Assembly: GCA_034190085.1 (NCBI GenBank)
Contig: JAXHTS010000002.1
Span: 1 to 64,000, forward strand
From: Spirochaetota bacterium
Lineage (GTDB): Bacteria > Spirochaetota > UBA4802 > JAFGDQ01
Direction: 5' to 3'
DNA: 64,000 bases
Below the pieces are notes generated by a model. The model saw only the letters and a program-made list of their open reading frames with translations. It did not search any database and was not told the DNA's origin. The translations under genes and the position numbers were made by a program. Each line of letters begins with the position of its first letter. Within the stretch, counting starts at the first letter, position 1. Shown here one piece after another: positions 50,340 through 64,000 of this stretch.

Positions 50340-51668
50340 ATGAAACTCTTTTGCTTACTTTGTATTTCAATCGTAATATTATTAGCATTTATATTCATTT
50401 GTGTTAGTAGACTACTTGCTGGAAGCGTATATCACACATCTTATCAAAGCGTTGAATTTATTAGATCATTAAACAGGAACGCATCAACTGAAGTAGACGC
50501 AACATTCTTCAATCCCGCTGGAACTGCAAGGTTGGAGGATGGGCTTTACTTTTATTTAAGCAACCATTCTCTTTTTCAGACTAAGACAATAGAGGATACA
50601 ACCATATTACCAGCCAGCATGAATTCTGTTCAATTGAAGGATGAATATGTAGGTGATGTTAATGCATATATCTTCCCTAATGCCTATGTAGTCTACAAGA
50701 CCGAGGATTGGGCATTTTTTGGTGGTTTACTACCTTTAGCCGGAGGTGGCAGCGCGGATTTTTCAGAGGGATTTCCTTCATTACAAATAAGCGCTCTTAG
50801 ATTAATTGGCAATCCCCTTGATGAAGGAGACCCAAGTTCTACAGTTACTGGTTTAGATTCATTTATATCAGAATTCAAGGGGTCATCCGTCTATTTTAGC
50901 GGTCAGCTCGGATTAGCTTATAATTTAAATGATACTATATCCATAGCACTTGCTGGAAGAACGGCATATGCCTACAACAAATATGATGGAAAGATAACAG
51001 CCATATACTCAACCCAAGCAGATGAGCAACGCTCCTTAACACAAAATATCGACTTTAAGGAGACAGGTATATGCTATTCTATAATAACAGGAGTGAATGC
51101 TGCCCCGACTTCAGAGCTTAATATTGGCGTTAAATTTGAGTATAATACCAAATTAGTGTTAGAACGTGATAAATCTAGCGGAGATACTAGTAGTTACCCT
51201 GATGGCGAACGGACAAAAAAGACACTACCCATGGTAGCTACACTCGGAATATCATATATGATAATGCCAGGACTTAGGATTGAGACTGACTTTAGCAATT
51301 ATTTTAATAAGCAAGTTGATTGGGATGGCGCGGAGGATGATTACAATCATGGTTGGGAAGCAGGCATAGGATTGGAATATGTTATAAACTCTAAACTCAA
51401 GGCAAGTGCTGGTTATCTCTACACAATTAAAGGAGCAACTGAAGAGTCTCTCTCTGAAATGAGCATGTATCTCGATCTACATCAAATCGGATTAGGAGCT
51501 GTGTATAGCGTTAATCAAGATGTTGATGTTTCCATCGGATATATGTATGGAATATATATGGAAGAAGAAGTGGATAGCCTATCTAAAAATTTTGGTTTAG
51601 AAGGGACTCTAAAACTTGACCAGACGGTATGGGATATTGGAATTGGATTAACATACAAGGCCATGTAG
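50340..51668 (+). CDS. FadL/OmpP1-type outer-membrane protein (porin 1)
   Basis: The 442-residue protein has a signal peptide (CISIVILLAFIFICVSRLLAG) and then the FadL family pattern. ASTEVDATFFNPAGTARLEDGL near residue 52-73 is the N-terminal hatch signature. About 14 amphipathic strands follow (for example VYFSGQLGLAYNLNDTISIALAGRTAYAYNKYDG, LNIGVKFEYNTKL, GLRIETDFSNYFNKQVDW, KLKASAGYLYTIKGA and the closing strand TVWDIGIGLTYKAM). Family members transport long-chain fatty acids or other hydrophobic compounds across the outer membrane. The ribosome site CAGGAGAATTTC precedes the ATG. It faces the sensor-kinase block, whose genes converge on it. Confidence 0.9.
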   Translation: MKLFCLLCISIVILLAFIFICVSRLLAGSVYHTSYQSVEFIRSLNRNASTEVDATFFNPAGTARLEDGLYFYLSNHSLFQTKTIEDTTILPASMNSVQLKDEYVGDVNAYIFPNAYVVYKTEDWAFFGGLLPLAGGGSADFSEGFPSLQISALRLIGNPLDEGDPSSTVTGLDSFISEFKGSSVYFSGQLGLAYNLNDTISIALAGRTAYAYNKYDGKITAIYSTQADEQRSLTQNIDFKETGICYSIITGVNAAPTSELNIGVKFEYNTKLVLERDKSSGDTSSYPDGERTKKTLPMVATLGISYMIMPGLRIETDFSNYFNKQVDWDGAEDDYNHGWEAGIGLEYVINSKLKASAGYLYTIKGATEESLSEMSMYLDLHQIGLGAVYSVNQDVDVSIGYMYGIYMEEEVDSLSKNFGLEGTLKLDQTVWDIGIGLTYKAM

Positions 51669-52027: not shown

Positions 52028-54421
52028 TCAATTTCCTATACTCGATTTAAAATATCTTGCCTCTATATTTGTATATTTTACTGAATTTCTTTTTAGAATT
52101 GCAATGTCATGAAGTATTTCAAATATCTCATGAACTTCGAAAGGTTTCTGAATAAAGGCATAAGCTCCTTTTTGAACGAATTGATTGTTATCCAAATCTA
52201 GTTTTCCACTCATAAATACAACCGGCACCTGTGGATCTACCGCTTTTATTTTTTCAAATACCTGATAACCAGTCATATCCGGCATTACCACATCAAGAAA
52301 AACCACATCAGGTCTACATCTAAGCAAAGAAGTAATAGCTCTCTCCCCTTTATTTTCAATAATATAGTTTTCAATGCAGGCTTTCCGAAATATCAATTTC
52401 ATTAAATCAATCATCTTTTCCTCATCGTCAATAACTATCACTCGTAAATCTTTAATCTTTTCTATTCCTAAATCGAATACTTTTGCTTTTTGGGTCTCCT
52501 CCCTCACCAATCCTGATGCAACAGTAGGCATTTTTATAATGAAAGTTGTGCCTTTGCCATACTCAGATTCAACTGCAATTGTACCATTATGTTGTTTTAT
52601 TATCGTTTGTGTCACGGAAAGGCCTAATCCAGAACCGAGTATTCCCAGGTTATCCTTTGCCCAGCCACCCTTAGTTGTAAAAAAGGGATCAAATATTTTT
52701 ATCCTCGTGGCTTCTTCCATGCCAATTCCTGTATCAGAAAATCTTATCTCAACATGTTTATTCTCTTCTTTTACTGAAATTGAAATCTTTCCTTTCCCTT
52801 TGGGTTTAATGGCATGTGATGCATTTATTATGAGGTTAATGAATACCTGCTCAATCTGACCCCGATCATAAGAGACTCTACTATGATCTTTATATTCTCT
52901 CTCAACTTTAATACTTTCCAAATACAACTGCTTCTCTTGAATTTTTATTATTTCATCAATAGTCTTGGTAATATCCATTGATATGAATTTTAGCTCCTTA
53001 GGTTTGGCATATGCCATCAATTTTTTTACTAAATCACTACCACGTTTAGAAATGCCTTCAATAACATGTAGAGAATCCTTAATCTCAGTAACAGAATCTT
53101 CCGCATTTGATAATTGAGCATGACCCAGAATGATGGTAAGCAAATTATTAAACTCATGTGCGACACCGCTTGCGAGTTGTCCTAAAGCCTCCATCTTTTG
53201 CATTTTTACAATTTGAACTTCAATCTCCTTTTTTGCTTCTTCTGCGCGCTTTAGATCTGTAATGTCAGATATCACCATCAGGATGCAGTCTTTTCTTAAT
53301 ATTACAGCACGGCTTATGCTTATCTCAACCCAAAAGGGTTGTCCATGTTTGTCTTGGATATTCCATTCAAAATGTACAATCTTTTTATAAGAATCAGGGG
53401 CATTTATGAGGTCAACAACCTTGTCATTAACAATTTGATCAAATATTTCAACTACACCCTTTCGCAATACTTCCTCTCTCTTCTTTCCAAACATATTACA
53501 ATAGGCTATATTTACAGACTCGATTCTTAATGATTTGTTTATTGTTAAGATGGCATCTGGCACATTGGATACAATGTTCTCGTAATGTTCCTTTAACCTA
53601 TTTATTTCTAAATCAGCCTTTATTCTGTCAGTCATATCCCTTAAAATACACTGTATGCCAATCACAACATTTTCATTCATAATTGGTCTCATCCCCAACT
53701 CCCCAATTCTATCCTCATTATTCCCGGCTGTAACTATTACCTCTACCGTATCCATCTGCTTCCCTTCCAATATCTCTTTAGACTTAATTTCGTACATTCT
53801 ATCCTTAATGGAAGAGATAATCATTCTATCGCTCTTTCCAATCAATTCCTTTTTCTTATATTTCGTAACCTCCTCCATCTTCTGATTCACAGAAGTAAAA
53901 ATCCCGTTTGTATTAACAGTATAAATAATATCACTAGCTGAATCATATAAGTCCCTGTATCTCTCTTCAGATAACTCCAACTCATACATCTTTATTTGAA
54001 GCGAATTTAACAATTTTTTGTTCTCCAACTCCAATCTATAACTATGTACCGCATTATAGATAGGTTTTAAAAGCTGCTCAATATCCTCAAGGGGTTTCAA
54101 TAAATAATCATAGGCCTTTAAGGAGACAGCTTCTCTAGCAGTATCCAGACTTGCGAATCCTGTTAATAGAATAACAGGCAAATCTTCATCCAATTCATTC
54201 ACCTTCGACAAAAACTCGATTCCATCCATTCCCGGCAATTTTATGTCACATATAATCACCTCATAATCATTGGAATCAAATTTGTTCAACCCCTCTTCAG
54301 CAGTGCCAACTGCTTCCACCTTAATATTCCTTTTTATAAGACTCGAAGCCATGGCATATCTGAAATCCTCGTCGTCTTCAATTAATAATAAATTAATTGT
54401 TCCTAATTTCTGAATATCCAT
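52028..54421 (-). CDS. Hybrid sensor kinase: receiver - PAS - PAS - histidine kinase - receiver
   Basis: The 797-residue soluble protein has an N-terminal receiver (1-125, Asp59 in VIICDIKLPGMDG) and two PAS domains (about 150-270 YRDLYDSASDIIYTVNTNGIFTSVN; about 285-400 NIVSNVPDAILTINKSLRIESVN). A HisKA with GVAHEFNNLLTIILGHAQ follows, then an HATPase (INLIINASHAIKPKGKGKISI, FSDTGIGM, GSGLGLSV), and a C-terminal receiver with RPDVVFLDVVMPDMTG. There is no membrane segment, so the signal is cytoplasmic or arrives through the first receiver. A leading receiver lets another kinase drive it; the V4R-type kinase gene 20 bases upstream is the natural candidate. No output regulator with DNA-binding domain is nearby. 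Confidence 0.93.
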   Translation of the reverse strand: MDIQKLGTINLLLIEDDEDFRYAMASSLIKRNIKVEAVGTAEEGLNKFDSNDYEVIICDIKLPGMDGIEFLSKVNELDEDLPVILLTGFASLDTAREAVSLKAYDYLLKPLEDIEQLLKPIYNAVHSYRLELENKKLLNSLQIKMYELELSEERYRDLYDSASDIIYTVNTNGIFTSVNQKMEEVTKYKKKELIGKSDRMIISSIKDRMYEIKSKEILEGKQMDTVEVIVTAGNNEDRIGELGMRPIMNENVVIGIQCILRDMTDRIKADLEINRLKEHYENIVSNVPDAILTINKSLRIESVNIAYCNMFGKKREEVLRKGVVEIFDQIVNDKVVDLINAPDSYKKIVHFEWNIQDKHGQPFWVEISISRAVILRKDCILMVISDITDLKRAEEAKKEIEVQIVKMQKMEALGQLASGVAHEFNNLLTIILGHAQLSNAEDSVTEIKDSLHVIEGISKRGSDLVKKLMAYAKPKELKFISMDITKTIDEIIKIQEKQLYLESIKVEREYKDHSRVSYDRGQIEQVFINLIINASHAIKPKGKGKISISVKEENKHVEIRFSDTGIGMEEATRIKIFDPFFTTKGGWAKDNLGILGSGLGLSVTQTIIKQHNGTIAVESEYGKGTTFIIKMPTVASGLVREETQKAKVFDLGIEKIKDLRVIVIDDEEKMIDLMKLIFRKACIENYIIENKGERAITSLLRCRPDVVFLDVVMPDMTGYQVFEKIKAVDPQVPVVFMSGKLDLDNNQFVQKGAYAFIQKPFEVHEIFEILHDIAILKRNSVKYTNIEARYFKSSIGN

Positions 54422-54441: not shown

Positions 54442-56064
54442 TTATTGATTGTAAGGAATGATTACTGTATATTTTGTCCCCCTGCCCGATTCGTTATTAA
54501 CAATCATATCCCCATTAAAACGCTTAATTATATTGTAACTTATGGCCAAACCCAACGCGCTTCTTTCCCCATATTCTTTTTTTATGGAGAATGGATCAAA
54601 TGCTATGTTTAAATCATCCTCAGAAACACATTTATCATTATTTGAAATCTCAACTATAACATTATCTGCGGTGTTGTTGGTTTTCACAAAAATCCGTCCC
54701 TCTTTCTTGATGGGCTCCATAGCTTTTCTAAAGATATAAATAAAAACCTGCTTCATCTGCATAGAATCTGCCTTAATCGTTGGCAGATTTGGGCTAAGTT
54801 CTTTTAATATTGTTACATCTAAATATGGGTTTTCTACTTTAATTTTAGTTGTAATAATTTCTAAAATCTCGTTAAAATCCAAATCAATTAAACTTAGACT
54901 ATCACTTTCCCTGGAAAAGGAGAGCAGTTCATTTACAATATCCTTGCACTCGCTGGTGGACTTAACAATGCTGTTTAAATGATCCCAACGCAAATCATCA
55001 TTGGAAATGTCCTCCAATACATCCTGCACATAGCTCCGAACAGCTCCAACGGGATTATTCAGCTCATGAGCCATTCCTGCCGCTAACTGACCTACTGTGG
55101 CCATCTTTTCCTCATGGATTAAATGATCTCTGCTGGCTTTCAATTCTGCAAGGCGCTTCTGCAGTTCTTCATTAGTCTTTTGAAGCTCTTCAGTCCTCTC
55201 CTCCACCTTTTGCAATAATTCCTCATTTAGTTTTTCAACACTTACAAGAGAATCGATTAACGCCAAATTCTGTTCATCATTCATTCTTATATTATCATTC
55301 AGTGTTCTCTTGTAATCTATTATTCGACCTCCCCAAAAAAATGCAACAGGAATCAACATTATTGATAAGATTGATAATTGAAATATGCTAATTATTTCCC
55401 ATTGTAATAGCAAATAAGATAAATATACCACAATGAGTCCCCCTAGTAAAGCATAAAACCTGAGCCTCTTATATGCATAATTAATCCACCTTACTTCGTA
55501 AATACATGAATCCGCTCCCTCCGCAGCACACTGAGTCTCTGTAATTTTAGCATAAGGCAAATTCCAGAATGTCGGCACAGCGCATAGCTGTCCCTTGACA
55601 TTAAGACAATTATTCTTATCCTGCTTTAAGTCGTCTTTCAGCCGAAAATCAATAACTGCTTTATTTCTCTTAAAAAATAAGAGTCTAAAGTTTCCAACTC
55701 TTGCCCAATGATCAATAAACCTGCTGCAATTTTTGTAAAAAGTAATAGGTGACGGGAAAATATTCATTATCGTTTTAAGAATGCCCCAAGTCTCAATAAA
55801 TCTGACTGCATTCAATCCGTATGTATAGGGTGTTTTCGGGTCTCCTGTATACTCAACCATCGCTTTAAGCAAATTACAGAAATATTCATAGCTTACCCAG
55901 TTGTCATTCTTTTCAAAAAATTCCAAAGGCATTCCAGTACCTTCAATGAGTTTCCTTAACTCCTCCTTTCCATACTCCTCTTCAAATGAATATAATAAAT
56001 GATTTACTACTGTAAGACCAAAATCCATTCTTGTATTTTTTGGATCAATAGCAACGTTTTTCAT
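54442..56064 (-). CDS. Membrane histidine kinase with N-terminal V4R-like sensor, paralogue 1
   Basis: The 540-residue protein has an N-terminal cytoplasmic sensor (about 1-200) ending in NVKGQLCAVPTF and TQCAAEGADSCIYEVRWIN, which resembles the V4R/4-vinyl-reductase and heme-NO-binding-like families (Cys, Gly, Cys, aromatic pattern). Two membrane helices follow (FYALLGGLIVVYLSYLLL and FQLSILSIMLIPVAFFWGG), then a coiled coil (about 265-325), a HisKA with GMAHELNNPVGAVRS and an HATPase with IEISNNDK and SALGLAISYNIIKRFNGD. V4R domains are thought to bind small hydrophobic ligands. The paralogue lies 306 bases upstream. The ATPase N-box is divergent (VFIYIFRKAMEPIKKEGR), with Arg in the place of the usual Asn. 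Confidence 0.88.
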   Translation of the reverse strand: MKNVAIDPKNTRMDFGLTVVNHLLYSFEEEYGKEELRKLIEGTGMPLEFFEKNDNWVSYEYFCNLLKAMVEYTGDPKTPYTYGLNAVRFIETWGILKTIMNIFPSPITFYKNCSRFIDHWARVGNFRLLFFKRNKAVIDFRLKDDLKQDKNNCLNVKGQLCAVPTFWNLPYAKITETQCAAEGADSCIYEVRWINYAYKRLRFYALLGGLIVVYLSYLLLQWEIISIFQLSILSIMLIPVAFFWGGRIIDYKRTLNDNIRMNDEQNLALIDSLVSVEKLNEELLQKVEERTEELQKTNEELQKRLAELKASRDHLIHEEKMATVGQLAAGMAHELNNPVGAVRSYVQDVLEDISNDDLRWDHLNSIVKSTSECKDIVNELLSFSRESDSLSLIDLDFNEILEIITTKIKVENPYLDVTILKELSPNLPTIKADSMQMKQVFIYIFRKAMEPIKKEGRIFVKTNNTADNVIVEISNNDKCVSEDDLNIAFDPFSIKKEYGERSALGLAISYNIIKRFNGDMIVNNESGRGTKYTVIIPYNQ

Positions 56065-56370: not shown

Positions 56371-58011
56371 TTAAGTCTCTGAGCTTCTTTCCACAAAAAG
56401 AGGTATAGTTACAGTAAACATTGTTCCCTTGCCAGGCTTGCTCTGTACTCGTATATCCCCATTAAAACGTTTAATGATATTGTAGCTTATAGCCAGGCCA
56501 AGTCCCTTACTCTTCCCAGGAGCCTTGGTAGTAAAAAAGGGATCAAATACTTTATTCATATTTTCCTTAGGTATTTCTTCACCATTATTAAAAATTCTGG
56601 CAAGTACACTATCCTCAACCATCTCTGTCTTTATTATTATCTGTCCCTTTCCCTTAATAGCATCGCTGGCATTCATAATGATGTTCATAAAAACCTGCTG
56701 AAGCAGCATGGAGTCTGCCTTGATTTTGGGTAAAACTTGGGTTAAATCTTTTATTATAATTTTATATGGATTTGATATCTCCTCTTCAGCATTTACAATA
56801 CATTTTTCTAATATATCGTTAATATCAACCAAAACTAAACTTGTATCACCAATATTATTTGAAAAGGAAAGTAAATCATTCACAATATTCTCACAACGAT
56901 CTGCGGCCTTCACTGCTTTTATCAAGCGTTCCTCACATGAATCACCCTCACCAATCAGCATTGTTTCATCAATAGCATCATGCAGACAACTCTGAATAGC
57001 GCTAACAGGGCCATTAAGCTCATGCGCCAATCTCACTGCCAGCCTGCCAACTGCAGCCATCTTCTCAGATTGTATCATTTGTGACTCATTACTTCTCAAT
57101 TCAGTGTATGTCTTAAGCAGCCGCTCATTGCTCCTTCTAAGCTCTTCACTCCTCTCTACCACTTTCTTTTGAAGAGATTCTTTCAGTTTTTCAATATTGA
57201 TTAACATATCAACTAGCGTATCATTTTGTTCCTCTATTACCTCAATATTATCCTTCAGCGTTTTCCTATCGTCTAATATCATGCCACATAAAAAAAATCC
57301 TACTGGAATAATGATAAATGCTGCTTTGGATAACATAGATAAATCAATTATCTCCAAGCTTATCAGAATATAAATTACTAATGTATTAACTATTCCTAAT
57401 AATAAAGTAAATAATCCGACTCTCCTATATGATTTATTAATCCAATTAATCTCATATATGCATGAATCAGCACCTTCAGCAGCACACTGGACTTCTTTAA
57501 TACATGCATTTGGTAATCCCAGTATGTTAGGGAAAGAAGCTAGTTGCCCTTTAATATTTTTACAATTGTTTTTTGTTTGTGGAAAATGTAATAATGGAAT
57601 AAATTTTATAATTGCCCAATTTCTTCCTTTATCTTCTATTACCCACCTACTATTTTTTGAGAAGAGAGAAGAATACTTTACTAAGGACTTATAAATAAAT
57701 CCAACATTCCTTAAGATTTTACAGATTATTTCTAGCGGTCCCCATGCCATATCAAATATAGCATAAGCACCTGCTTTATAGGGAACATTAATATCTCCAG
57801 TATATTCAACTAAAGCATTTAAAACATTGTTAAAATATTGATAGGATATCCAATTATTCCCATCTTCTAAATAATCTAAAGACATCCCTGTCTGTTCAAT
57901 AAAATTATATAATTCATCTCTTCCATAATGTTCCCCAAAATATAAAAGAATATGTCTAATTACCCTACAACTTAAATGCATTTGGGTTTTTTGCGGATCA
58001 ATATATTTCAT
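56371..58011 (-). CDS. Membrane histidine kinase with N-terminal V4R-like sensor, paralogue 2
   Basis: The 546-residue protein has the same architecture as the kinase at 54442: sensor region with NIKGQLASFPNILGLPNA and VQCAAEGADSCIYEINWIN, two membrane helices (VGLFTLLLGIVNTLVIYILISLE and LSKAAFIIIPVGFFLCGM), a coiled coil, HisKA with RLAHELNGPVSAIQS and HATPase with NIIMNASDAIKGKGQ and GLGLAISYNIIKRFNGD. Here the ATPase N-box Asn is intact, unlike the other copy. The paralogues differ at about half of positions, so duplication is old. Its start overlaps the end of the FemAB/GNAT-like gene by 14 bases, so both are translated from one message. Confidence 0.9.
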   Translation of the reverse strand: MKYIDPQKTQMHLSCRVIRHILLYFGEHYGRDELYNFIEQTGMSLDYLEDGNNWISYQYFNNVLNALVEYTGDINVPYKAGAYAIFDMAWGPLEIICKILRNVGFIYKSLVKYSSLFSKNSRWVIEDKGRNWAIIKFIPLLHFPQTKNNCKNIKGQLASFPNILGLPNACIKEVQCAAEGADSCIYEINWINKSYRRVGLFTLLLGIVNTLVIYILISLEIIDLSMLSKAAFIIIPVGFFLCGMILDDRKTLKDNIEVIEEQNDTLVDMLINIEKLKESLQKKVVERSEELRRSNERLLKTYTELRSNESQMIQSEKMAAVGRLAVRLAHELNGPVSAIQSCLHDAIDETMLIGEGDSCEERLIKAVKAADRCENIVNDLLSFSNNIGDTSLVLVDINDILEKCIVNAEEEISNPYKIIIKDLTQVLPKIKADSMLLQQVFMNIIMNASDAIKGKGQIIIKTEMVEDSVLARIFNNGEEIPKENMNKVFDPFFTTKAPGKSKGLGLAISYNIIKRFNGDIRVQSKPGKGTMFTVTIPLFVERSSET

Positions 58012-59149
58012 ATATTTTATTAAAAATCCTTCTACCTTTAAACTTTATACTTTTATCTATTTCTCTTTCTAATCTAGGTATGAATCGATTAAAAAAGCTA
58101 TACTTATTCTTTATAAATAAATAAAAAGGCTTCAATTCAGATCCTAATTCTATTTTGGGAATATATGTTGAAATTCCTAGATCAATTTCTTTTGCTCTTT
58201 CTTCTATTCCGATTCTCACTAAATTATATAGAAGATTAAAATATATCGAATATTTTTTATTATATTTATAATCTAATCCTGAATAAAGAAATCGTAATGT
58301 ATAATCATCAAAGAATACCAACAAAAATCCCACAATATCATTCTCCTTAATAGCTGAAATTATTTTAACTTTTTTATTTAAATACTTATTTATATTAATA
58401 AAATATTCTCTATTAATTAACTCTCTCTGTATTTCGTTTGTGCTATTATAGATATTCAACCATAATTGTAAAAGAAGTTGAGCATCTTTTATTAAGTTTT
58501 CCTTTACTTCTATCTTGATATCTCCATCTCTCATTTTATTAATATTTTTTTTTAATTTATGTCTATAATGACTTCTTAAAGAATTTACATATTCATCAAA
58601 GGAATTCCATCTGATATTCATAACTGCTAATGGAAATGATTTCATTTTAATATATCCGAACTTCTCAAAAGTTAGTAATAAATGCTCGATTTCTGATTCA
58701 AAAAAATCTCTGATAATAATTAAAGATGCCTTACAATTTATAAATATCTCTTCAACTTGATTTAATATTAATTTCAATAAATGATGCTGTTCATTTTTAT
58801 TAACATTAAAGGAAAATGGATTTCCTAAAGATATAGCCCCTCCACACTCAAGAGTATTTATATATAAGAATCTAAAATTAAAAGTTTTTCTTATAAACAC
58901 AAACATCTTTTTCACAATTCCATCAAGAAAAGCATCTAATGGATAAGATGTTAGATATATACATGTATTTCCTATCAATTCTTCATTGGAGTAAACTAAT
59001 AGATATTTTAATTGAAAATTTTGGATCTTTGATTTTTCTACTGCTTTTAGATAATCATATGTAAAAAACAAATTATTTTTGGCAATGACACTATCCCATT
59101 CAGTTTTTGTTACTTCATTTATATTATCAATGACCTTTATCTTATACAT
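57998..59149 (-). CDS. FemAB/GNAT-like acyl- or aminoacyl-transferase
   Basis: The 383-residue protein resembles the double-GNAT FemAB-like family (Acetyltransf_6 type). It shows FFTYDYLKAVEKS near the start, LLVYSNEELIGNTCIYL, the family-typical SFDEYVNSLRSHYRHKLKKNINKM at about 188-212, SAIKENDIVGFLLVFFDDYTLRFLYSGLDYKYN and IEERAKEIDLGISTYIPKIELGSELKPFYLFIKNK. Members transfer acyl or amino-acid groups to lipids, sugars or peptides; the substrate here is unknown. Codon use is noticeably more AT-rich than in the housekeeping genes, suggesting recent acquisition. It lies 25 bases after the radical SAM gene and overlaps the kinase gene by 14 bases. Confidence 0.75.
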   Translation of the reverse strand: MYKIKVIDNINEVTKTEWDSVIAKNNLFFTYDYLKAVEKSKIQNFQLKYLLVYSNEELIGNTCIYLTSYPLDAFLDGIVKKMFVFIRKTFNFRFLYINTLECGGAISLGNPFSFNVNKNEQHHLLKLILNQVEEIFINCKASLIIIRDFFESEIEHLLLTFEKFGYIKMKSFPLAVMNIRWNSFDEYVNSLRSHYRHKLKKNINKMRDGDIKIEVKENLIKDAQLLLQLWLNIYNSTNEIQRELINREYFININKYLNKKVKIISAIKENDIVGFLLVFFDDYTLRFLYSGLDYKYNKKYSIYFNLLYNLVRIGIEERAKEIDLGISTYIPKIELGSELKPFYLFIKNKYSFFNRFIPRLEREIDKSIKFKGRRIFNKIYEIY

Positions 59150-59174
59150 TTTAGATTTTTACTACCTCTCAAAT

Positions 59175-60509
59175 TTAAAATTTTCTTTCAGGGAGAATAT
59201 ATCTTAAATAATCCTTGTTTAAAGAATAAGTAAAAATTGATGAAGTAACACTTTTAGTAACAATCAGTGTCTTTAAAAACTGTTTTAGGATATTATAACT
59301 TGATAAAGTATTATGAATTACATAATCATATCCACGCACTAATTGGTCGACTGTCATTAATTTAGGAATAATCATAAGTTGATCCATATCACATCGATCC
59401 CAATCAGAAGGGAAATTTGAGTATATTATACGATCTTCCATCTTTAATCTCTCAAACAATTTAGTACCTGGGAATGGGGTTAAGAATGCAAGTTGTAATA
59501 CATCGATTTTAGTATCTTGAATAAATCTTACTAATTCATCAAAAATTGTAATATCTTCATTATCATTTCCGACAATAAATGATCCTATCACACCTATACC
59601 ATGTTTATGAATAATAGAAATAGCATGTTTAAATCTATCAGTTCCTAATTTTAAGTTAACACCTTTTCTCATTTCTTTTAAAGTAACATCTTTAATAGAT
59701 TCAATGCCTATATATAATGCCCTACAACCACTCTTATATGCGTATTTTAAAACATCCTCATTCTCAATTATATTTATCGAAGTCTGAGTACCCCATATCT
59801 TTCTAATTTTTCTATCCATCATTCCCTTAAAAAGATCTATAGCTCTTTCTTCTGCTTTTTTTCCTACCCCAAGTATATTATCATCTACGAAATATACAAC
59901 TTTCTTCATGATTGTTTGCAACTCATCCAACACTTCTTCAACAGGTCTTTGTCTGTATTCAGCACCATTAAAAGCTGTGACACTACAAAATTCACAATTA
60001 AAGGGGCATCCTCTAGACGTTTGTATAACATCCATTTTATACTTTTCGGAAAACAAATCTCGTTTAGGGATTGGTAGATTCACAAGTGAAGGTTTGTCTC
60101 CTACATACTTTTCTTTTAATTGACCATTTTCGAAATCTGATATAACTTTCATCCAAATAGATTCAGCCTCACCAACAACGACTGTATTAACATATTTGGC
60201 AGCTTCTTCAGGCATCATAGAAACATGTATTCCCCCTATAACTGTAGGTATGCCCTTCTGTTTAAATTCACTAGCCAATTTGTATGCTCTTGTTGCATTG
60301 ACTGAATATGAGGTAATTCCTACCAAATCAGGTTTTTCATTTATATCAAGCTTTTCTACATACTCATCTACTATCTTTATATGCCAATCACTTGGAGTAA
60401 GTGCTGCAATATAACCCAAGGCTAATGGTGGCATACCCCAAGCTTCAGTATCTCCATATCCTTGTGTCATTTCTTTTGGGACGGGATGTATTAATAATAA
60501 CTTTTTCAT
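59175..60509 (-). CDS. B12-binding-type radical SAM protein 1
   Basis: The 444-residue protein has an N-terminal cobalamin-binding Rossmann-like domain (about 1-150; DLVGITSYSVNATRAYKLASEFKQKGIPTVIGGIHVSMMPEEA; VVVGEAE) without the DxHxxG base-off motif. The radical SAM barrel follows with CPFNCEFC at about 175-182 binding the 4Fe-4S cluster, then YFVDDNILG, ALYIGIESI, IGSFIVGNDNEDITIFDELVRF and LTPFPGTKLFERL. The C-terminal segment is of the type seen in HpnP/HpnR and related methyltransferases. Substrates in the family include hopanoids and other lipids. The substrate is unknown. It is encoded before the FemAB/GNAT-like gene with a 25-base gap. Confidence 0.9.
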   Translation of the reverse strand: MKKLLLIHPVPKEMTQGYGDTEAWGMPPLALGYIAALTPSDWHIKIVDEYVEKLDINEKPDLVGITSYSVNATRAYKLASEFKQKGIPTVIGGIHVSMMPEEAAKYVNTVVVGEAESIWMKVISDFENGQLKEKYVGDKPSLVNLPIPKRDLFSEKYKMDVIQTSRGCPFNCEFCSVTAFNGAEYRQRPVEEVLDELQTIMKKVVYFVDDNILGVGKKAEERAIDLFKGMMDRKIRKIWGTQTSINIIENEDVLKYAYKSGCRALYIGIESIKDVTLKEMRKGVNLKLGTDRFKHAISIIHKHGIGVIGSFIVGNDNEDITIFDELVRFIQDTKIDVLQLAFLTPFPGTKLFERLKMEDRIIYSNFPSDWDRCDMDQLMIIPKLMTVDQLVRGYDYVIHNTLSSYNILKQFLKTLIVTKSVTSSIFTYSLNKDYLRYILPERKF

Positions 60510-60798
60510 AATATTAGCATCATACCTTTTAATGTGTTATTGTTAAAATAGACATACAACTGTTAGCATATTCAAATTCTTATATAAAAGAGTATTTTCT
60601 GAAAGTATTGACAATCGTTTATCACATATTCTATTAATATGAATTTCTATTTCAATATTATATTCTTCAATTACAGAACATTATAGCATCACACTCTTTT
60701 TCATTTATTTTGAAAATACTATTGTAGACTTAAACTTTCATACTTTATGAATACTAAATAAATATTATTATATTCCTTCTATAAAAAAGTAAATAATT
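60510..60798. other. Non-coding stretch, 289 bases
   Basis: Strongly AT-rich spacer between the two radical SAM genes. No ribosome site or open frame of note. May separate two transcripts. Confidence 0.4.
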
Positions 60799-62148
60799 TC
60801 AGTTAACGCCACTCCAAGGATCTAATCTCTTACCTGTGGCAATATGAAAATGAAGCTGAAATAATAAATCATCAAGAAGTGAACCTTTTTTATCAGGTGT
60901 TAAATAGAATTTTTTAAATTTCCACAATCTTTTAATGATATTCTTATAAGAATAGAATGTATAATAACTTTTCCAAACATTATCTTGCAAATCCTGAATG
61001 GATATATTTTTTGGGGAAAATACAATATGGTTTAAATCATATTTTGACCAATCTTTTTCAAATATTCTTCCCTCACAATCCAATTTTTGATAGAGATCTG
61101 TCCCGGGATATGGTGTTACAGTAAATATTCTGATGAAATTAACATCATTGTCTAGCAAAAATTCCAATGTTCGCTTAAGGAGTTCTACATCATCATTTTC
61201 CAGTCCGAACATTATCATAACATGAGGGCTGATTCCATTTGATTTCAGTAGTTTAAAGAGCCGCGCATATTCTTCTGGTTTGTTGAACGATTTATTAACA
61301 CTTTTTAAATTACATATATTTAATGATTCAATGCCTAATATAACCTCATGGCAGCCACTTTCACCAGCTAATTCGACTAACTTAGGATTATTTAAAACCC
61401 GAGTACTAAATTGACTGAACCATCTAATCTTAAGCGGAGTAATTTCTTTGAATAATTGTTCAGAGTATTTTGAATTTGCTGCCAAGTTATCATCAACAAA
61501 AAAAAAGTCACGAGCTTTTGAAGCATCTATCTCCCGAAGGACATTATCAATAGGCTTTGTTCTATATTTGCCCCCGAAGAATTTTGTAACTGAACAATAA
61601 CTGCAACTAAAGGGACATCCTCTTGTTGTGAAGATTGGCATTGCTGGTGTCTTTGCAAAGGGGGCTTTTAGGCACTTGTCTGAATTATTCAAATCAAATC
61701 GAGGAATAACTAATTTTTTCAAATCTGGGAACACATCATTTTTGTATATTGAATTTAGCTTATTATTTTTCTGAAAATCCCGAACCACCTTTTCCCATAG
61801 ATTTTCTGCTTCTCCAACTACTACACTATCCACATGTTGTAAAGCTTCTTGAGGTAATGCTGTTGCATGGATGCCTCCCATCACAACGGTTTTGCCTCGC
61901 TTTTTGAATTCTTGGGCTATCTGATATGCACGTGGCGCGTGACAAGTTAATGCAGTAATTCCAACTATATCTAGATCCTCACTAAAATCTATAGTATCAA
62001 TATACTCATTGGTAATGGAGACTTCAACATCATTGGGAGTTAATGCAGCTATGGTGGATAATGTGCCTGATGGCAATAATATCTTCTTGTATTTGATTGG
62101 TTTTCCAGAATCATCGAGCTGTGCTGGTTGGATTAACCTAATCTTCAT
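60799..62148 (-). CDS. B12-binding-type radical SAM protein 2
   Basis: The 449-residue protein shares the layout of the neighbouring radical SAM protein: cobalamin-type domain (DIVGITALTCHAPRAYQIAQEFKKRGKTVVMGGIHATALPQEALQHVDSVVVGEAE), cluster motif CPFSCSYC in TTRGCPFSCSYCSVTKFFGGKYR, DFFFVDDNLAANSKYSEQLF, EVILGIESLN, PHVMIMFGLENDDVELLKRTLEF and TVTPYPGTDLYQKLDCEGRI. Its sequence differs enough to suggest a distinct substrate rather than a recent copy. An 86-residue frame overlaps its start by 11 bases. The order porin, small protein, radical SAM 2 implies an operon running leftward from 63728. Confidence 0.9.
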   Translation of the reverse strand: MKIRLIQPAQLDDSGKPIKYKKILLPSGTLSTIAALTPNDVEVSITNEYIDTIDFSEDLDIVGITALTCHAPRAYQIAQEFKKRGKTVVMGGIHATALPQEALQHVDSVVVGEAENLWEKVVRDFQKNNKLNSIYKNDVFPDLKKLVIPRFDLNNSDKCLKAPFAKTPAMPIFTTRGCPFSCSYCSVTKFFGGKYRTKPIDNVLREIDASKARDFFFVDDNLAANSKYSEQLFKEITPLKIRWFSQFSTRVLNNPKLVELAGESGCHEVILGIESLNICNLKSVNKSFNKPEEYARLFKLLKSNGISPHVMIMFGLENDDVELLKRTLEFLLDNDVNFIRIFTVTPYPGTDLYQKLDCEGRIFEKDWSKYDLNHIVFSPKNISIQDLQDNVWKSYYTFYSYKNIIKRLWKFKKFYLTPDKKGSLLDDLLFQLHFHIATGKRLDPWSGVN

Positions 62149-62398
62149 TTTTCTTCCTCATATAATCTTTGCATAATAAATCTATGTTCGGAATAAGGTA
62201 ATTAAAATCTTCTGAACGGGATAGCAAAGCATCACTAATATTTTTCCTATAATAGATATAGTAAATTTTTCCAATATAAACGCTGACGTTTATAATAAAT
62301 AAAAATGCTTCCTTTGTAATATTAAGTTTTAAATAATTGTAATGCAATGTGGATGTTGATGTAGAAGAAGCAGAGAAGATTAAACAAAGTGTGTTCAT
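62138..62398 (-). CDS. Small protein of unknown function, 86 residues
   Basis: The frame starts MNTLCLIFSASSTSTSTLHYN and ends NIDLLCKDYMRKKNED. A hydrophobic segment EAFLFIINVSVYIGKIYYIYY in the middle may be a membrane helix or a buried strand. GGGAGGATC just before the ATG is a strong ribosome site, which is the main reason to accept the gene. It overlaps the start of radical SAM 2 by 11 bases, suggesting translational coupling. No homologue is recognised. Confidence 0.55.
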   Translation of the reverse strand: MNTLCLIFSASSTSTSTLHYNYLKLNITKEAFLFIINVSVYIGKIYYIYYRKNISDALLSRSEDFNYLIPNIDLLCKDYMRKKNED

Positions 62399-62447
62399 GA
62401 TCCTCCCAACCAGAATATAACATTATCCCAGTGGTCGCACTTTCAAA

Positions 62448-63728
62448 TTAAAATCCATAAGTAACACTAACAGAATAGCCAACAGCAAAATTTTCATATT
62501 CGCCATCAATGCTGGATGAAGAGCTTATTTCATTGTAATCGACATTGTTATTAATGGTTCTATCTTCATAGAAGATCAACTGAAGCGCGCCATCTATGCT
62601 CAAATTGCCTTTCCGAAAGCCAAGCCCGGAGGTCAGGAATTGCATATCTGTATCCGGCAGATTGGGTCTCCAATTCTCGTCAGGAACCGCGTTTTCATTG
62701 TAGATGTAGCCAGCTCGAAGGCATATATATTCATTTACTTTATATTCCAAACCAAATTTGTAAGCAAAGGTATTCTCATACCCATATTCCTGTGTGATTC
62801 TATCTGGCAACAGGGGTGGTACGGGCGAGTCGATTTTAATCACAACAGAATCAAGAGTCTCCCAATTGGTCCAATCTATATTAAACTCCAATTTTAACTC
62901 CTCCACTGGTCGATAGGCATATCCTATTACTACTGTGGCTGGGAAATCAAAAGAGGTTTCTCCGCTCGTTTTATATGATGGGCCAATTCCAATGGAATCG
63001 GGAATATTTGTTAATTCGAAATCGCCCTCGTATTCCAGTTTAAAAGGGCTTTTAAAAGCAGCGGCAAAATTGTGGTGGTCGTTTATACTATACAGAATTC
63101 CCAGGTTATAGCCAAAGGCATATCCATCACCCTTCAACCCTCTTTTCCCATCAAGAGCGCCTGACAATCCCATAGAAGTCTCATAGTCGATCATACTTTC
63201 CAGCGTTACTTGAGAATAATAAATACTAACTCCAAATCCAATGGATAAATCTTTCACTACTTCCCAACCCAATGAAGGATTCACATCAATAACTGTGAGA
63301 TCAGAATATGTATCAACATATCTGGCGAATCCAGTGTCACTCCATTCACTAGCAAGGCCGTTTGGAACGGTGATGCCAATACCAATAACTAAGTTCTCAG
63401 TATTCAAATCACTGGTGACAAAACAATTTGGAATATATTGCCATTCGTCCAGCATTTCCTCTTTTGCGCCTGAAGGACTTTTGTGTTCAGGCCAACCGTT
63501 AGTAATCGTAACCCCGGTTGACGCCTGTATACCATCCAATTGCGTCAACCCCGCTGGATTAAAGGCTATAGCCGAGGGATCATCTGCCTGCGCAATAAAT
63601 GCTTCTCCCATTGCTGTTGCTTTTGTGCTCTTAACGCCAAGAACTCTCAATCCATTAGCATGAAGAAGATCATTGTAAAAAGAAGTCACAAGACCCAACA
63701 TTACAAACCATAGAATACATCTACTCAT
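62448..63728 (-). CDS. FadL/OmpP1-type outer-membrane protein (porin 2)
   Basis: The 426-residue protein has a signal peptide (CILWFVMLGLVTSFYNDLLHANG) and the FadL pattern: GVKSTKATAMGEAFIAQADDPSAIAFNPAGLTQLDGIQASTG. The classic NPAG hatch motif is followed by a barrel with VEELKLEFNIDWTNWETLDSVVIKI, YENTFAYKFGLEYKVNEYICLRAGYIYN and ENFAVGYSVSVTYGF at the end. It would transport hydrophobic molecules such as long-chain fatty acids. It is closer to classical FadL than porin 1. GGAG seven bases before the ATG fixes the start. It heads the probable operon with the small protein and radical SAM 2, which is a hint to the nature of their substrate. Confidence 0.93.
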   Translation of the reverse strand: MSRCILWFVMLGLVTSFYNDLLHANGLRVLGVKSTKATAMGEAFIAQADDPSAIAFNPAGLTQLDGIQASTGVTITNGWPEHKSPSGAKEEMLDEWQYIPNCFVTSDLNTENLVIGIGITVPNGLASEWSDTGFARYVDTYSDLTVIDVNPSLGWEVVKDLSIGFGVSIYYSQVTLESMIDYETSMGLSGALDGKRGLKGDGYAFGYNLGILYSINDHHNFAAAFKSPFKLEYEGDFELTNIPDSIGIGPSYKTSGETSFDFPATVVIGYAYRPVEELKLEFNIDWTNWETLDSVVIKIDSPVPPLLPDRITQEYGYENTFAYKFGLEYKVNEYICLRAGYIYNENAVPDENWRPNLPDTDMQFLTSGLGFRKGNLSIDGALQLIFYEDRTINNNVDYNEISSSSSIDGEYENFAVGYSVSVTYGF

Positions 63729-63863
63729 CAGTCGCTCCTAGGTACTGTATCACGTAAAGAAGGAAACAACATACTGGAGGGAATTATTCATAATTTTCAT
63801 CCAAATAATATCTGACTCTTACACTCCCCTTCCCAAAAAACGTGCCCCCTTATCGTCAAAGAA

Positions 63864-63901
63864 GGGCTGTCTCATGATAATTATTGCGGTGATGACAGCC
63901 C
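63864..63901 (-). terminator. Hairpin, probable terminator of a gene beyond the window
   Basis: GGGCTGTC at 63864-63871 pairs with GACAGCCC at 63894-63901 around a 22-base loop, with three further pairs across a bulge. On the minus strand it is followed by a short TTCTTT tract. It lies upstream of porin 2, so it likely ends a transcript entering from the right; an insertion-sequence end is an alternative. Confidence 0.4.
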
Positions 63902-63975
63902 CTCTTGCTGAAACACTCCCCAAACCCCCAATGGGGACCTCATGTATGTTTTTCAGCTTTTACCGACGTCAACTT

Positions 63976-63987
63976 ATACAATTGTAT
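63976..63987. repeat. 12-base AT-rich palindrome
   Basis: ATACAATTGTAT is a perfect dyad 250 bases upstream of porin 2. It could be a regulator site, but AT-rich palindromes occur by chance in such DNA. Confidence 0.25.
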
Positions 63988-64000
63988 CAATTCTAATAAC

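Follow-up and report, generated by a model that had tools for sequence, protein, structure and literature searches.

The genes considered here lie on the minus strand at the end of a 64,000-nucleotide stretch of a Spirochaetota contig (JAXHTS010000002.1; this whole stretch is called the window, and its genome G000), where enzymes of putative lipid synthesis stand beside membrane histidine kinases in a block that belongs to a rare bacterial module. The original prediction had confined this block to positions 56371-63728 and to six open reading frames (ORFs), all of which are open on the minus strand; the run is longer, with a gene for an alpha-oxoamine synthase (AOS) upstream and genes for a second histidine kinase (HK1) and a hybrid kinase downstream. 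The AOS gene (450 amino acids (aa); contig 64003-65355, equivalent to L001 14004-15356; minus strand) lies just past the end of the window, 274 bp from the first gene of the block and on the same strand, the window holding 63729..64000 of this minus-strand gap.

From its upstream end, the block contains a FadL/TodX outer-membrane channel (426 aa; 62448..63728, minus strand), an 86-aa ORF (62138..62398, minus strand), two radical S-adenosylmethionine (SAM) proteins (protein 1, 60799..62148; protein 2, 59175..60509; both minus strand), a FemAB-like tandem-GNAT transferase (383 aa; 57998..59149, minus strand) and the histidine kinase HK2 (56371..58011, minus strand). The identities proposed for the porin, the transferase and the kinase are borne out by Pfam matches above cut-off (PF03349, 8.8e-63 and 212.7 bits with a gathering cut-off of 29.7; PF04339, 4.9e-14 and 52.7 bits with a cut-off of 27, together with PF13480, 25.9 bits with a cut-off of 22; HATPase_c, 78.8 bits). 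Both radical SAM proteins were rightly named as such, but the B12 type had been given to only one of them and both carry the B12-binding domain above cut-off (PF02310, 7e-11 in protein 1 and 6.5e-13 in protein 2) next to PF04055 (2.8e-16, with a CxxxCxxC motif, and 1.4e-14). The 86-aa ORF, counted as a small protein in the original prediction, is open but matches no family in the family-profile searches, and its codon score is poor (-0.045 per codon, whereas the seven scored window genes reach 0.139 to 0.400); judged from these sequence features, it is doubtful that it is a real gene.

HK2 comprises a heme-less H-NOX/V4R-type domain, a hydrophobic hairpin, HisKA and HATPase_c. Its paralogue HK1 (54442..56064, minus strand) has a degenerate ATPase domain and keeps its histidine, and the hybrid kinase (REC-PAS-PAS-HisKA-HATPase-REC; 52028..54421, minus strand), which has counterparts after HK1 in genomes G001 and G002, is a probable phosphorelay partner. 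The 289-bp spacer at 60510 (20.1% G+C), suggested earlier as a border between two transcripts, exists as described; over the region, promoter-like matches (64 found, 62.2 expected) and terminator-like hairpins (5 found, 5.6 expected) are at chance level. A further gene, at 50340-51668 of the window on the plus strand, resembles by eye one for a FadL/OmpP1-type outer-membrane protein and has no NCBIfam match at 1e-5.

Recurrence of the cluster and its variable parts

An AOS gene is clustered with a FemAB-like gene in seven genomes from two groups (the window genome, G001, G002, G070, G296, G339 and G572), and in six of the seven one or more V4R-like histidine kinases are encoded on the same contig. 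In G001 and G002 (L063, L064), which belong to the family of the window genome, a hybrid kinase is followed by AOS, CrtI-like flavoprotein, FemAB, HK2, HK1 and another hybrid kinase, and the genes between AOS and HK1 are separated by only 13 to 75 bp. The cluster of G296 (L128, Candidatus Omnitrophota) reads REC-PAS-LuxR, FadL, AOS, FemAB and a V4R-type kinase truncated where the contig stops; that of G339 reads REC protein, FadL remnant, AOS, FemAB, V4R-type kinase and REC-kinase; and that of G572 reads HTH-REC, AOS, FemAB, FkbM methyltransferase, V4R-type kinase and two further kinases. In G070 (L065), AOS and FemAB are adjacent and an acyl-CoA ligase follows. The linkage expected of a hydrophobic-molecule system with a V4R-type sensor thus recurs, but the exact set of porin, two radical SAM proteins, FemAB and kinase was found only in the window genome.

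What varies is the middle of the cluster, which holds FadL and two B12-radical SAM proteins in the window, a flavoprotein in G001 and G002, FadL in G296 and an FkbM methyltransferase in G572. The core is, for this reason, the AOS, the FemAB-like enzyme and the V4R-like kinase or kinases, and the porin and the radical SAM proteins are accessory. FadL has an orthologue (53%) within the same cluster in G296 and a C-terminal remnant of 120 aa in G339, and no homologue in G001, G002 or G070. Radical SAM genes lie inside the AOS-FemAB cluster in the window genome only: G001, G002, G339 and G572 have none there, and neither does the contig-covered part of the G296 cluster. Scattering of the genes in relatives, named in the original prediction as the outcome that would speak against it, was therefore observed for the radical SAM proteins but not for FemAB and the kinase.

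The rarity of the module emerges from surveys of two phyla. In the window's phylum, FemAB matches are present in 16 of 296 genomes, four of them strong (E<1e-40), and strong V4R hits (E<1e-49; profile A4, built without G070) fall in the same four genomes out of 296, three of which share one family and are not independent. In the second phylum, FemAB matches occur in 72 of 334 genomes and strong V4R hits (profile A6, built without G339 and G572) in three, all with AOS-FemAB; the five best FemAB matches there include the module-bearing G339, G572 and G296, the genome of L128 itself. When the named genomes were scanned with the AOS alignment, 80 loci were retained, one of which (L128) has the module, and no AOS match was found beside weaker FemAB matches of the window's phylum in nine further regions (L066 to L074). 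For the second phylum, 20 FemAB regions were covered; together they represent under 20 of the 72 genomes with a match, and L207 to L210 were seen in part. Absence of a family from VIA-align or Foldseek lists was not taken as real absence. A literature search, with most subscription journals outside its coverage, found no description of this module.

FemAB-like genes also appear in other settings. Across L204-L218 of the second phylum, many that are more distant share a recurring cluster with genes for a CrtI/amine-oxidase-like flavoprotein, a DegT-type aminotransferase and a hydrolase, in some loci also with FabF/FabZ/FabG-like genes (e.g. L216 3936-7545 and 8470-9663; hydrolase and Fab genes named by eye). 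These clusters may encode an uncharacterized lipid pathway. A tight run in G093 (L066 497-6450) joins genes for two radical SAM proteins, a FemAB/GNAT-like protein, another GNAT and a LysA-type decarboxylase. The AOS and FemAB of G070 (L065 6157-7761 and 7865-9298) each have an extra domain of ~120 residues, PilZ-like by eye, on which Pfam is silent.

Sensor domain and kinase pair

The V4R label of the original prediction holds for the sensor domain at superfamily level, through fold and zinc motif, but not at family level, since PF02830 gives sub-threshold scores of 15.0 bits (HK2) and 12.8 bits against a cut-off of 31. In an AlphaFold2 model based on a 15-row alignment (predicted local distance difference test, pLDDT, 88.6), the N-terminal 190 residues adopt a soluble H-NOX fold, followed, by eye, by one hydrophobic hairpin. 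The model aligns with H-NOX (Z 15.8, root-mean-square deviation 2.7, 171 residues), the N-terminal fragment of VirS (Z 14.3), Bet3 (Z 10.6) and palmitate-bound TRAPPC3 (6aq3, Z 10.4), and the profile matches H-NOX (0.0018), MJ1460 (0.0056) and MopR (0.6), the last reaching E 1.1e-3 in a separate comparison. Cys150, Cys176 and Cys184 (spacing 26 and 8) are conserved in 15 of the 15 rows of A6, as is an acidic or histidine residue at position 173, next to a zinc cysteine (E in eight rows, H in seven). In DmpR, the zinc cysteines are Cys151, Cys177 and Cys185, with a Glu at 172, according to the part of PMC7264223 that was available. Fold and spacing of the cysteine zinc motif are thus common to the window sensor and to the DmpR/MopR/XylR V4R and H-NOX domains, whereas the DmpR Glu lies five residues before the second Cys and the E/H of the window sensor three before; the latter also differs from the DmpR type in being part of a histidine kinase with a membrane hairpin and in falling below the PF02830 cut-off. 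Membership of the sensor in the V4R/H-NOX ligand-binding superfamily is supported by these models and profiles.

Heme sensing, the function of H-NOX proper, was considered and rejected because no His is conserved: apart from position 173, His occurs in at most 4 of 15 rows in every column of the alignment, and a proximal heme His is the defining ligand of H-NOX. Nor do the residues 2, 4 and 6 before Cys150 follow the Tyr-x-Ser-x-Arg motif of H-NOX.

The sensor domain also occurs in G068 and G078, fused to an N-terminal FeeM-like N-acyl-amino-acid-synthase domain (L179 10053-12422; L180 8275-9801, cut by the contig end). The L180 fusion matches PF21926 (8.4e-8), that of L179 matches the unfused FeeM-like proteins encoded at the two loci (E 1e-21 and 1e-26), and a free FeeM-like gene stands upstream of the fusion in both; the L179 fusion also carries a kinase ATPase domain and is followed by a B12-radical SAM gene. 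Elsewhere (L175, L176, L181, L224-L226), the sensor is joined, by eye, to HD-GYP-like and in some cases also GAF-like output, so it is, as far as domain composition tells, probably a general input module in these phyla.

The two kinases of a cluster have diverged in complementary ways. In G001 and G002, HK2 lacks the phospho-acceptor His and has intact N, G1 and G2 boxes, and HK1 keeps the His and has damaged G1 and G2 boxes. The window HK1 likewise keeps the His, without the N-box Asn and the G1 box, and the window HK2 has the His and the N box, with Asn replacing the G1-box Asp. All boxes are present in the single-copy kinases of G339, G572 and G070. Because the losses in HK1 and HK2 are complementary, a decay after duplication in these sister genera suggests that the two proteins may form a heteromer.

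A candidate acyl amide circuit and its alternatives

With a probability of about one half, the module makes and senses its own long-chain acyl amide on a plan resembling that of CqsA/CqsS; synthesis, ligand and direction of signalling are all inferred. As expected from its family, the AOS, an enzyme dependent on pyridoxal phosphate (PLP), would join an acyl thioester and an amino acid in a condensation that gives a long-chain aminoketone. The FemAB-like enzyme, in view of its fold and linkage, would acylate the amine of this aminoketone, yielding an N-acyl lipid amide. Tailoring specific to each lineage would follow, here through the two B12-radical SAM proteins (methylation or C–C bond formation) and elsewhere through the CrtI-like flavoprotein or the FkbM methyltransferase. 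FadL, where present, would let the hydrophobic product back in across the outer membrane. The heme-less H-NOX/V4R-type domains of HK2 and HK1, which face the cytoplasm, would then bind the product; their fold and motif are computed, and the ligand is conjectural. The two kinases, probably as a heteromer, would pass phosphate via the hybrid kinase to a response regulator. The whole would constitute an autoinducer-type or product-feedback circuit.

This circuit is favoured because of the AOS-FemAB linkage in seven genomes, the co-occurrence of FemAB and V4R, the single clade of the module AOSs, the fusion of a FeeM-like synthase to the sensor in G068 and G078, and the resemblance of the sensor fold to H-NOX and palmitate-bound TRAPPC3. 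In addition, FadL takes up long-chain N-acyl-homoserine lactones in rhizobia (PMC9938287, in the part available), and signalling by an AOS-type synthase paired with its own kinase has precedents in CqsA/CqsS and LqsA/LqsS. Several observations weigh on the other side. No exporter or flippase was recognized in the cluster, the AOS reaches no NCBIfam equivalog cut-off, and a terminator-like hairpin (L001 13866-13846) lies between AOS and FadL. The G070 AOS falls outside the six-row module clade, and the V4R-type kinase of that genome is on another contig (L174) than AOS-FemAB. G351 and G605 (L202, L203), which supply the other two of the five best FemAB matches in the second phylum, have FemAB with neither AOS nor V4R kinase in the stretch seen. 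The ATPase of the window HK2 may be impaired by its Asn, and the solved folds closest to FemAB use aminoacyl-tRNA and not acyl-CoA.

Half as credible as this circuit, and hence unlikely, is a ceramide-like structural lipid made by AOS and FemAB and tailored by the radical SAM proteins, whose supply the kinases would monitor with no signal passing between cells. The best PDB match of the AOS is indeed serine palmitoyltransferase (SPT; 8guh/3a2b, 1e-91), followed by KBL, BioF and CqsA (1.8e-30); bacterial ceramide synthesis is built around Spt and a cytoplasmic acyltransferase (PMC11087976, as far as its accessible part goes), and clusters of SPT, acyl carrier protein, ligase and short-chain dehydrogenase/reductase (SDR) genes are present in the order (L082, L083). 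The best NCBIfam score is that for NF047600 (410.2 bits, cut-off 640), and that for NF005526 (192.5 bits, cut-off 428) leaves the enzyme outside the CqsA/LqsA branch. In phylogeny, six module AOSs form one clade (support 96/95) split by phylum, which in a larger tree is distinct from both the BioF clade and the AOSs adjoining a WVPPL-type GNAT (26 of 93 rows), a transferase to which FemAB has no detectable relation (hhalign probability 0.4%). Against the structural lipid also speak the lack of any match to an SDR reductase less than 6 kb from the AOS in L001, L063, L064, L065 and L128, the separate AOS-SDR-WVPPL cluster of G002 (L081), and the two kinases and regulators per cluster, which are heavy for lipid homeostasis. 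A role of the AOS in biotin synthesis was ruled out, since BioF is encoded elsewhere in G000, next to BioA and BioD (L080).

It is somewhat less probable still that the radical SAM pair and FadL are an insertion in this lineage acting on another substrate, a view compatible with the core of the proposed circuit. It would accord with the lack of radical SAM genes in four of the other clusters and with the patchy G+C content of the block (FemAB 22.9%, FadL 40.9%, AOS 42%; window 35.5%). Countering it, FadL turns up again in G296 and, as a remnant, in G339. Moreover, G070 and G068, genomes with only 13 and 9 matching genes, respectively, have B12-radical SAM genes immediately next to V4R-type kinase genes. 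In G070, the best of the 13 matches to radical SAM protein 2 is the gene directly upstream of the V4R-type kinase (L174), a position suggestive of a tie to the sensor. Radical SAM protein 1, unlike FemAB, could not serve as a tracer of the system, as its family is too large (58 of 59 genomes match); its 20 neighbourhoods contained no FemAB or FadL match and only weak kinase matches (≤101 bits), and in G031 a relative precedes genes for an acyl-CoA dehydrogenase and an electron-transfer flavoprotein. With the BchE/HpnJ/HpnR and ladderane-type B12-radical SAM enzymes, the two proteins have domain order and distant profile matches in common, all far below equivalog cut-offs, as is the nearest NCBIfam of protein 1, BchE/HpnJ. 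Both are presumed tailoring enzymes.

Doubts about the acyl donor lead to an improbable alternative in which FemAB would be a FemX-like, aminoacyl-tRNA-dependent transferase and the product an aminoacylated aminoketone or a lipopeptide. The FemAB model (AlphaFold2, pLDDT 86.2) is closest to the folds of FemX, FemA and the tRNA-dependent Sbb17/Sba18 (Z about 22 to 23), but the same list contains, besides MprF, N-myristoyltransferases and other users of coenzyme A (Z about 17 to 19), and the G070 cluster has its acyl-CoA ligase after FemAB. The likeness to FemABX peptidyltransferases is one of modelled fold. While fold alone cannot separate the two donors, acylation is favoured because of the linkage to AOS, and FemAB is a probable N-acyltransferase on the strength of its model and its neighbours.

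Least probable of all is the system originally envisaged, in which FadL imports a foreign hydrophobic compound that the radical SAM proteins modify and the kinase senses: the same-strand linkage and the chemistry of FadL and V4R, which suit hydrophobic ligands, agree with it, but the recurring cluster can do without FadL and the radical SAM proteins, AOS and FemAB are enzymes of synthesis, and making a molecule is likelier than importing one because the cluster carries a synthase.

Relation to known systems and significance

In the Vibrio CqsA/CqsS and Legionella LqsA/LqsS systems, which signal with alpha-hydroxyketones, a PLP-dependent AOS-type synthase is encoded beside a membrane histidine kinase and regulators (PMC3376566, in its available part). 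The proposed acyl amide circuit resembles them in that AOS, HK2 and HK1 lie in one run and that this arrangement recurs. It differs in an AOS far closer to SPT/KBL than to CqsA, in the FemAB-like transferase added in all seven genomes, and in a sensor that is an H-NOX/V4R-type domain and not a six-helix membrane receptor. With bacterial ceramide synthesis (Spt, bCerS, CerR), the module has in common an AOS followed by a GNAT-fold transferase, but this transferase belongs to another family than the WVPPL-type GNAT that is often encoded next to an AOS, no SDR match lies near the AOS at the five loci checked, and dedicated kinases are present. Compared with FeeM-/LuxI-type synthases, of which G068 and G078 have a FeeM-like domain fused to the same sensor, the window uses AOS and FemAB instead.

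More tentatively than the circuit itself, the module could represent a new class of lipid autoinducers, with a signal made by AOS and FemAB, swappable tailoring that marks it as belonging to a lineage, and heme-less H-NOX-fold kinases that perceive it, acting in the window's family as a heteromer in which one kinase contributes the His and the other the ATPase; on this tentative view, the FeeM-V4R-kinase fusions would embody the same idea with another synthase. If the proposed circuit is right, it would add to CAI-1/LAI-1 a second AOS-based route to a lipid signal, and B12-radical SAM enzymes would have a part in tailoring such a signal. Two neighbouring kinases that divide the His and ATPase functions between them, while their single-copy relatives remain intact, would offer a clear evolutionary example of heteromeric specialization, and orphan V4R/H-NOX-like kinase domains would gain a class of ligands, namely fatty acyl amides made by the products of neighbouring genes.

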